From: Emcibacter sp. SYSU 3D8
Lineage (GTDB): Bacteria; Pseudomonadota; Alphaproteobacteria; SMXS01
Reading direction: 5' to 3'
NCBI RefSeq assembly: GCF_039655875.1
Contig: NZ_JBBYXK010000002.1
Span: 558,001-622,000 of the forward strand
Length of the DNA: 64,000 nt
In this document: positions 20,026-38,525 of the stretch, one piece after another
How positions within the stretch are numbered: the stretch's first letter is position 1
How the letters are laid out: each line of letters starts with the position of its first letter
Made by a program: the position numbers and the translations under genes
The notes under the pieces: model-generated
Seen by the model: only the letters and a program-made list of their open reading frames with translations
Database searches by the model: none
Told to the model about the DNA's origin: nothing

Positions 20026-20691
20026 ATGTCCAGAGGCAGTTTTCTCAATGATGGCCTTTACGACTATTTGCTGAAGGCGACGCTCGCGCCCGAGCCGCTG
20101 CTCGAGCGGCTGCGGGACGAGACCACCGAAAAGACCGGCCAGTGGGCCGGCATGCAGATCTCCCGCGACCAGGGCCGGTTCATGCAGGTGCTGGTCAAGC
20201 TGATGGGCGCAAAAAAATACCTGGAGGTCGGCACCTTCACCGGCTACAGCGCGCTGGTGGTCGCCCAGGCGCTGCCGGATGACGGCAAGGTGGTGGCCTG
20301 CGACATCAGCGAGGAATGGACCGCGGTCGGCAAGCGCTACTGGGCCGAGGCCGGTGTCGCCGGCAAGGTGGACCTGCGGCTGGCGCCCGCGCTCGAGACC
20401 ATGGCGGCGCTGGCGGACGGTCCCGAGGCCGGCACCTTCGACATGATCTTTCTCGACGGTGACAAGAAGGAATATGACGGCTACTACGAATACAGCCTGA
20501 CCCTGTTGCGGCCGGGCGGCGTGGTGCTGGTCGACAATGTGCTGTGGGGCGGCAGCGTGGCCGATCCCGAGAAGCAGGACGAGAGCACCGCCGCGATCCG
20601 GGCGCTGAACGAGAAGATCAGGGACGATGCGCGCGTGTTCAGCGTGCTGGTCTCGATCGGCGACGGCCTCACCATGGCCGTGAAACAGTAG
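20026..20691 (+). CDS. O-methyltransferase (caffeoyl-CoA type, class I)
   Basis: A 221-residue SAM-dependent methyltransferase. SAM motif I is [16 protein letters not shown] at about residues 65-80; the metal-binding Asp lies in [15 protein letters not shown] and the second site in [16 protein letters not shown]. Members methylate catechol-type hydroxyls with a divalent cation. The stop is five bases before the phosphatase start, so the two genes are an operon. The substrate is unknown. Confidence 0.92.
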
Positions 20692-37773: not shown

Positions 37774-38250
37774 CTATCCACCCTGACCGATCTTATGCAG
37801 AATCTGATCGGTTACGCTGCGGCCAGCCTCGTCACGCCTGAAGGCCATGAGAAACAGCAATTTGCCGCCGCTCGTCTCTTCCGCCTTGCGCCCGATGTTG
37901 TCCTTTTCCTCTGAATCTTGGGTTCGCACCCCCTTGTATTCGATTACCAGCTGCCGCCCGTCCTGCAGTTCGGCAACGAAGTCGGGGTAAAAATAGTCGG
38001 TCGATTTGGGGCTTCGGATCAGGCGTTTGAGCGCGACAGCCTTTCCCGATCCAGACTTGAAATACGTCTCGAGTTCGCGCGCGTGTTGTTCCGTCTCGAC
38101 GGCGACATAGGATTTCAGAACAACGGGGAGATATGCTTTGGTCGAAAGCACCTTACCCGCGTTGTGCGAAGAGAATCGTCGCTTCAGATCATTCGTCGAG
38201 CCGACATAGACATCGTCATTGCTCAACTTAAGAAAATAGACGTACCACAT
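37774..38250 (-). CDS. GIY-YIG nuclease fused to a PD-(D/E)XK restriction-type tail
   Basis: A 158-residue protein in two parts. Residues 1-78 form a GIY-YIG domain: Y3-V-Y5 and Y15-V-G17 for the GIY/YIG pair, RR at 24-25, His29, Glu59 and the end block TYFKSGSGKA. Residues 85-155 match the end of type III restriction R subunits: Y-F-Y-PD90-F, then E104-Y-K106 as a PD-(D/E)XK core and SGGKLLFLMAF. CAGGGAGAC before ATG 38250 sets the start. Base composition is lower in GC than the neighbours. Both active sites look intact; DNA cleavage or defence is inference. Confidence 0.8.
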   Translation of the reverse strand: MWYVYFLKLSNDDVYVGSTNDLKRRFSSHNAGKVLSTKAYLPVVLKSYVAVETEQHARELETYFKSGSGKAVALKRLIRSPKSTDYFYPDFVAELQDGRQLVIEYKGVRTQDSEEKDNIGRKAEETSGGKLLFLMAFRRDEAGRSVTDQILHKIGQGG

Positions 38251-38286
38251 AAAGTCTCCCTGCGCTGCTTCGCAGCTTCGGGAGAT

Positions 38287-38344
38287 CACCCTACGCCGTC
38301 AAGTGTGGTGGCCTGCCACCCGAAGCCCGTGAGGGCGTAGGGTG
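38287..38344. repeat. Nested inverted repeat next to tRNA-Gly
   Basis: A perfect 11-bp outer stem (CACCCTACGCC at 38287-38297, GGCGTAGGGTG at 38334-38344) encloses an inner hairpin GGTGGC-ct-GCCACC at 38307-38320. The right arm runs into the CCA end of the tRNA gene. No T-run follows on either strand, so it is more likely a mobile palindromic repeat unit or RNA-processing structure than a simple terminator. Confidence 0.7.
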
Positions 38345-38416
38345 GAGCGGGTGAAGGGAATCGAACCCTCGTCGTAAGCTTGGGAAGCTTCTGCTCTACC
38401 ATTGAGCTACACCCGC
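38343..38416 (-). tRNA. tRNA-Gly (anticodon CCC)
   Basis: A 74-base cloverleaf with acceptor GCGGGTG/CACCCGC, discriminator T and encoded CCA (38343-38345). The D arm is GCTC-AATGGTA-GAGC, the anticodon loop TTCCCAA with CCC, and the T loop TTCGATT. It would decode GGG. The base pair 27-43 (G-A) is mismatched, a feature I also associate with other alphaproteobacterial glycine tRNAs of this type. Confidence 0.96.
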
Positions 38417-38525
38417 GCGTCCAGCCGGTCTGAGATAGCATATGGGCCGGTGCTGTCGAGCATTTTCATATCTCCCGCGCGTTGCAGAAATCCCGTATTG
38501 AAGGGCGTTCCAGCGGGAGAACCAC

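Follow-up and report, generated by a model that had tools for sequence, protein, structure and literature searches.

A GIY-YIG gene with a paired-hairpin leader, probably part of a REPIN-like mobile element, at the 3' end of tRNA-Gly(CCC) in Emcibacter sp. SYSU 3D8

Results

An insertion behind tRNA-Gly(CCC)

A short insertion was identified directly behind the tRNA-Gly(CCC) gene of Emcibacter sp. SYSU 3D8, within a stretch of 64,000 nucleotides of contig NZ_JBBYXK010000002.1 (positions 558,001 to 622,000, hereafter the window). It consists of a leader with two hairpins, followed by an open reading frame (ORF) whose predicted product joins a GIY-YIG nuclease domain to the end of the R subunit (Res) of a type III restriction enzyme (Table 1). 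The ends of the insertion were defined by comparison with G006 and G007, two genomes of the same genus in which the site is empty and CCA is followed by five bases and then by the stop codon of the cupin gene. The first base of the insert is the base directly after CCA, and 4-5 bp of the empty site have been replaced by it. Inspection by eye of three further genomes (G002, G004 and G005) revealed the same tRNA-Gly without such an element in the flank shown. The GC content of the insert is 0.559, against 0.658 for the window. A preliminary description, made from the letters of this DNA, had pointed to the low GC and to the position of the gene next to tRNA-Gly(CCC) and a palindrome; both observations were confirmed, the palindrome lying between the tRNA and the gene. 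What it missed is that the palindrome and the tRNA are the main feature of the locus, since they recur in many of the sampled Alphaproteobacteria, with genes of this GIY-YIG family and mostly without them.

Table 1. Features of the insertion and its flank (window positions)
Feature	Position	Strand	Basis or remark
tRNA-Gly, anticodon CCC	38343..38416	minus	ARAGORN; CCA end is the insertion point
Insertion of ~578 bp, tRNA-Gly CCA end to cupin gene stop codon	37765..38342	minus	empty sites in G006 and G007
Double-hairpin (REPIN-like) leader, tRNA CCA to just before ATG	38251..38345	minus	covariance model R1, fold z-scores
First imperfect palindrome, inverted copy (rcM), directly after tRNA	38317..38344	plus	pattern scan
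Second imperfect palindrome (M), GAA/GCA internal loop, directly before ATG	38256..38284	minus	pattern scan
ORF, 158 aa	37774..38250	minus	ATG at 38250, stop 37774-37776
Codons 1-79, complete GIY-YIG nuclease domain	38014..38250	minus	Pfam, identity of relatives, structure model
Codons 81-158, C-terminal end of type III restriction R subunit with D90, E104 and K106	37777..38010	minus	PADLOC PDLC03650

No promoter was found by consensus in the insert and no terminator between the tRNA and the ORF, the sole terminator-like site being in the cupin gene, so that read-through from the tRNA promoter would express the nuclease gene. The 3' ends of tRNA genes are usual sites of integrases, and the insert could be the remnant of an island: a tyrosine integrase would have placed a type III restriction system with further genes at tRNA-Gly, and their later deletion would have left the fusion behind. 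The low GC and the requirement for a donor Res gene would fit such a history. Four copies of the last 14 bases of tRNA-Gly with two mismatches (window positions 20235, 22253, 28508 and 59740; 0.55 expected by chance) also point in this direction, though all of them lie at least 9 kb away from the insert. On the other hand, the last 23 bases of the tRNA have no second copy in the window at up to three mismatches, and with 578 bp the insert is not long enough to hold an integrase gene; the locus therefore has neither the att duplication nor the integrase gene of an integrase island. Both the double hairpin and the GIY-YIG gene are, in addition, found again at numerous other tRNAs. A decayed island is considered unlikely as the explanation of the insert, and one may have been the source from which the tail was picked up.

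The GIY-YIG domain and its fusion to a Res end

The first half of the predicted protein was assigned to PF01541, which it matched with 50.3 bits (curated cut-off 22.6) over residues 1-68 and with the GIY/YIG, H and E residues of the family in place. It corresponds to about the full length of stand-alone relatives and is 84-85% identical to those of L004, L005 and G046. Pfam gave nothing over cut-off for the tail, which matched the PADLOC model REase_III PDLC03650 with an E value of 1.8e-17 (residues 81-154, model positions 818-894 of 898) and is 54-61% identical to 23 aligned parent Res ends. On the strength of that E value the tail is not a chance match, the outcome that the preliminary description had said would count against it, and both of its domain assignments held. 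Since only these model positions are covered, the protein is not a type III restriction enzyme in the sense of a helicase motor with a C-terminal nuclease. The translation contains Y3-V-Y5, Y15-V-G17, H29, P89-D90 and E104-Y-K106, as had been listed; the glutamate had been placed at E59, but the one conserved in relatives is E61 (LE-x-Y), and position 59 is N in L057 (alignment, judged by eye).

From these residues a small stand-alone protein with two nuclease cores, GIY-YIG and PD-(D/E)XK, had been proposed, acting as a defence or selfish endonuclease. Its open frame and the intact motif residues in both halves favour such a protein. An AlphaFold2 model on 31 aligned sequences (mean predicted local distance difference test score 85.7, predicted template modelling score 0.51) predicted that both parts fold: the GIY-YIG fold extends to residue 78, residues 80-87 form a linker without order, and a strand-strand-helix-strand-helix arrangement follows at 91-155. 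Foldseek matched the GIY-YIG part to UPF0213 and Slx1 proteins, and returned for the tail weak matches to PD-(D/E)XK-type nucleases (E above 0.07). Compared by eye with parents of 907 and 884 aa, and judged against the layout of the PD-(D/E)XK fold, the tail begins at the PD strand, and about 30 domain residues that precede this strand in the parents are gone.

A second example of the two-domain layout, as the preliminary description had suggested looking for, was not found. A search of genome contigs with the protein gave 71 matching loci, with listed ranges mainly on one half or the other, and none held both halves together when the matches crossing the junction were inspected; the three that extend far across it (L012, L039 and L040) proved to be terminal portions of Res-like proteins, of 907 aa, 884 aa and a cut frame of 269 codons, respectively. 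None of the 43 matching plasmid records had a place covering 80% of the query, and the phage collection contained no match to the protein. The length by which the frame runs on past the GIY-YIG domain was measured at 45 loci including the window (one further locus was skipped because of an internal stop): it is 79 residues in the window copy and 0-17 in 41 others, and three distant GIY-YIG proteins that are not beside a tRNA run on for 44-50 residues. The GC content at third codon positions is 0.63 in the GIY-YIG part and 0.69 in the tail, against 0.87-0.89 in three neighbouring genes.

Because no second example was found and the PD-(D/E)XK half is without the first part of the parent domain, the tail is probably an accidental in-frame fusion, recent enough for the frame to be open, and it is probably not a working second nuclease. 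A purpose-built two-nuclease endonuclease is accordingly highly improbable, and the Res end seems to be an isolated leftover of a restriction enzyme. The suggestion that the gene is possibly selfish was, in our judgement, right. Plasmid carriage was rejected as an explanation, as the matches listed (40 of the 43 records) were to residues 81 onwards or, for the two of widest extent (H1 and H38), to genes annotated as DEAD/DEAH helicases. A phage or viral origin was likewise rejected, there being no relatives in the phage and viral collections searched.

The double-hairpin leader

The leader of about 95 bases is made up of two inverted imperfect palindromes, in each of which a GNA/GNA internal loop separates the outer from the inner stem. 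The first also lies within a long hairpin with arms at 38287-38301 and 38330-38344, and GGGAG in the 3' arm of the second would be a candidate ribosome site. The predicted fold was better than that of all 200 shuffles (z -5.6 as RNA, -4.5 as DNA). RNAalifold analysis of 22 aligned elements indicated two hairpins with 13 pairs, nine of which showed double changes. Stem pairs were formed in 93.9% of the cells of the alignment, compared with 71.3% after shuffling, and covariation was 0.556 compared with 0.169, a value as high being reached in 0 of 500 shuffles; slid structures gave 0.04-0.19. Weaker measures of covariation were less distinct, the count of double-change pairs being reached by 22 and that of further pair types by 42 of the 500 shuffles. 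The covariance model built from these 22 elements, R1, scored the window leader, itself one of the 22, at 77.9 bits (E 1.5e-14). The palindrome pattern occurred 10 times in 404,222 bases of other loci. In the 16 + 18 loci scanned with Rfam no match over gathering threshold fell on the hairpins, the only matches being to models of tRNA, transfer-messenger RNA (tmRNA), RNase P and signal recognition particle (SRP) RNA; sub-threshold matches touching the hairpins were weak (for example, mir-4773 and sX4).

Association of the GIY-YIG subfamily with tRNA genes

Residues 1-79 were searched against 385 genomes of the class, which yielded 35 matches spread over 31 of them. ARAGORN called a same-strand tRNA upstream of 28 of the 35 matches, at 78-400 bp, and these tRNAs were of eleven kinds (Gly, Ser, Val, Asp, Ala, Thr, Lys, Leu, Pro, Met and Tyr); a tRNA-His case was found outside this set in a genome of the family (L077). 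As a control, 35 GIY-YIG loci were picked with the Pfam model (29 + 6). Three of these belonged to the subfamily by similarity (L311, L324 and L325), only L324 having a called same-strand tRNA, and no same-strand tRNA was present upstream at any of the 32 loci outside the subfamily. In a phylum-wide search 26 of 398 genomes matched, all from the same class, nine of them belonging to genus g267 with 5-8 matches each; as the share of sampled genomes from outside the class is not given, no taxonomic limit is drawn from this result. Relatives of the GIY-YIG protein outside the Proteobacteria were observed in a member of the Balneolaceae (L009, tRNA-Ser) and in Fulvivirga (L057, tmRNA), in both cases just behind the RNA and with a similar palindrome.

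At five of 40 loci (L007:386-422, L099, L103, L113 and L116) part of the leader, 14-31 bp, was repeated directly 4-20 bp after the GIY-YIG stop codon, compared with 0 of 40 in a control stretch. The repeat may mark where the unit ends on its 3' side, or may stem from an older element; given the five loci, it was rejected as a general 3' boundary.

Elements with and without the gene

R1 was searched against the 385 genomes of the class at E 0.001, ten candidates being scored per genome, and matched in 49 of them. Ninety places from the resulting list were examined (30 as loci and 60 fetched by region), weaker places falling outside this count; the best 150 of 160 matches were aligned and classified, which excluded two weak separate places (L177:2853-2899 and L218:816-891). 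Copy numbers are not given, because ten candidates were scored per genome and some places were listed on both strands. The 90 places contained 93 distinct elements. Of these, 71 abut the 3' end of a same-strand tRNA, four more do so on the reverse read, and 18 do not; the 75 abutting elements cover 16 kinds of tRNA. By our own arithmetic (60 tRNA genes in a genome of 1 Mb, with 11 positions allowed) abutment by chance would occur in about 3 in 10,000 cases. A GIY-YIG gene followed 22 of the 93 elements under a wider rule and 21 under the first rule. With two inverted imperfect palindromes and copies without an enzyme gene, the element has an architecture of the kind for which the term REPIN is in use.

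Several elements lay at other stable-RNA genes. Those at L187:901-1025 and L157:1501-1591 are within permuted (two-piece) tmRNA genes, the former directly after the acceptor CCA, and that at L192:901-995 directly follows the 3' end of SRP RNA. In genome G147 an element (L224:901-996) occupies a terminal loop, which we take to be P12, of an RNase P RNA gene that is otherwise a full-length match to its family; at L222 a palindrome overlaps the start of RNase P RNA, which may be a chance resemblance. Four elements without a called tRNA (L148, L149, L223 and L231) have, within the 20 bases before them, what by eye resembles the end of a tRNA-Ser (about a dozen bases), as if it had been carried along from a donor site. 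A further four (L169, L199, L178 and L216) are located 84-159 bases behind a tRNA, L169 and L199 after another element. At L172 and L204 a T-arm-like string is kept where neither ARAGORN nor Rfam called a tRNA, and L176, L188 and L215 have no recognised RNA beside the element.

Turnover among close relatives

The state of individual sites differs within the genus. At tRNA-Val(TAC), as judged by eye, complete GIY-YIG elements are present in G005 and G007, differing in kind between the two; the element of G000 has decayed, and G004 has none. At tRNA-Leu(CAA), again by eye, the solo element is complete in G006, whereas only the first part of an element is present in G000 and G005, a longer but still incomplete piece in G007, and nothing in G004 and G002. 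Occupied and empty alleles of one site, as expected for free-standing homing endonucleases, were found at both the tRNA-Gly and the tRNA-Val sites. One other element was found in the window genome, a truncated solo copy at tRNA-Leu(CAA) (G000:C2:486451-486570, L236), and the possibility of many copies in its own genome was rejected. In G003 (C13:7394-13366) the GIY-YIG gene and the stretch before tRNA-Asp lie some 6 kb apart, compared with about 100 bp in all in G005, so that a further insertion has apparently taken place behind the element.

These differences bear on the possibility that the double hairpin is an RNA device serving the host, either as a 3' trailer for the processing or stability of stable RNAs or as a translational control of the GIY-YIG mRNA. 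The strong RNA fold and covariation, the location at the ends of tRNA genes with single cases at tmRNA and SRP RNA, and the candidate ribosome site within the second hairpin would all suit such a function, which is hard to reconcile with decay, replacement and absence at one tRNA within a genus. Moreover, 336 of the 385 genomes had no match among the ten candidates scored in each, and most copies have no detected ORF to control. We regard a host-serving device as quite improbable.

In a test of similarity, the GIY-carrying element closest to a solo element came from the same genome in 12 of 48 cases, compared with a mean of 1.8 and a maximum of 11 after permutation (0 of 2000 reached 12). This could reflect mobilisation in trans.

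Discussion

Taken together, the data suggest that the insertion is probably a REPIN-like mobile element of the 3' ends of tRNA-type genes, with the GIY-YIG protein as its likely nuclease, and that the window copy is fused to a Res end. Its core would be an inverted pair of imperfect palindromes of about 95 bp, inserting precisely behind the CCA of tRNA genes, as well as at a few other stable-RNA genes, and carrying a small GIY-YIG gene behind it in some copies. The T-arm and CCA end is the sequence common to the tRNA targets, and as CCA is common to target and element end, the tRNA stays whole after insertion. Most likely the GIY-YIG enzyme would cut the target (T-arm/CCA end) or the folded palindromes, moving the element, and copies without the gene would be moved by it in trans. 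The fusion to the Res end probably arose by deletion or capture of flanking DNA at an earlier site. What the sequence comparisons show is the insertion with its CCA boundary, the link with tRNA genes, the covarying stems and the variable state of sites among close relatives; the part played by GIY-YIG in mobilisation, its recognition target and expression from the tRNA promoter are inferred.

A number of observations weigh against this interpretation. No GIY-YIG gene was detected behind 71 of the 93 elements (four of the 71 have less than 400 bp of sequence behind them), and such elements may be moved by another enzyme or be relics. No tRNA was called at seven of the 35 GIY-YIG matches, of which L108 begins where its contig does and L107 matches in part, and units carrying the gene have no constant 3' end. 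R1 is biased towards tRNA ends, since it derives from elements next to GIY-YIG genes, almost all of them at such ends, and covers CCA, though no other part of the tRNA. With respect to trans mobilisation, 36 of the 48 solo elements match best outside their own genome; the comparison relied on 30 GIY elements, of which eight had been chosen manually in addition, and left out others (for example, those of G130, G131, G147 and G155); and local duplication or common descent would also fit the similarity.

More tentatively, the elements could represent a class of mobile element new to bacteria, in which a GIY-YIG enzyme moves pairs of inverted hairpins, targets the tRNA-like 3' end (T-arm and CCA) of any tRNA, of tmRNA and occasionally of other stable RNAs, acts in trans and can capture neighbouring coding sequence to give fused proteins. 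If so, they would be a GIY-YIG counterpart of the REP/RAYT systems, with a target that is unusual in its precision and generality and leaves the host gene intact. They would account for repeats behind tRNA genes in Alphaproteobacteria, and would offer both a test case for the recognition of hairpin DNA by the GIY-YIG fold and an example of a mobile gene capturing a foreign domain.

Comparison with known systems

The GIY-YIG part has the fold and size of small UPF0213-type proteins (PDB 1zg2 and 1ywl; Foldseek E 2.4e-4 and 1.3e-2); unlike the subfamily described here, the other sampled GIY-YIG loci showed no linkage to tRNA genes. With the type III Res subunit (PDLC03650) the window protein has the last ~77 residues in common, whereas it contains neither the helicase nor the initial portion of the nuclease domain. 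The mitochondria of Allomyces contain mobile double-hairpin elements, some of them within structured RNA genes, for which no enzyme is known. Set side by side by description only, these resemble the present element in being mobile double hairpins that also occur in structured RNA genes, and differ in being mitochondrial and without a known enzyme.

In T4-like phages, SegB is located in a tRNA gene region. SegB is described as a free-standing phage GIY-YIG homing endonuclease (PMC13096335), and in both cases a GIY-YIG gene among tRNA genes would promote its own spread. The present element differs from what is described for SegB in its many tRNA sites, the CCA boundary, the double hairpin and the location on bacterial chromosomes, no phage or viral relative having been found in the collections searched.

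RAYT proteins are held to cut REP hairpins. No description of the present element was found in Rfam or in the full-text literature covered, from which most subscription journals and all preprints are absent. A survey of stem-loop repeats removed tRNA-related clusters, according to its description (PMC2267715), and Br-REP1 and Br-REP2, as given in PMC5082802, differ in sequence from the element. GTAG and CGTC palindromes are described in PMC3733652, where CGTC repeats are stated to be frequent in alpha-Proteobacteria, apparently without a dedicated transposase, and to have mostly CCA-like tails; such a tail is common to them and to the CCA start of the present element. The super-family tags given there, a GTAG or CGTC at one end of the palindrome and, for CGTC repeats, a stem opening with A-T pairs, were scarce among the 137 palindromes of the 93 elements, with CGTC at the foot in 7, GTAG in 2 and a stem starting AT in 0; in this respect the element does not fit those super-families. 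A Y1 RAYT gene flanked by REPs was not what we found, the linked gene being GIY-YIG (unlinked RAYT or transposase genes were not searched for). As far as REP/REPIN and RAYT are described in PMC3733652, both systems have two inverted imperfect palindromes, solo copies and a minority of copies beside a small nuclease gene, whereas in the present element the linked enzyme is GIY-YIG instead of a Y1 tyrosine transposase and the copies are placed at the 3' ends of tRNA genes.
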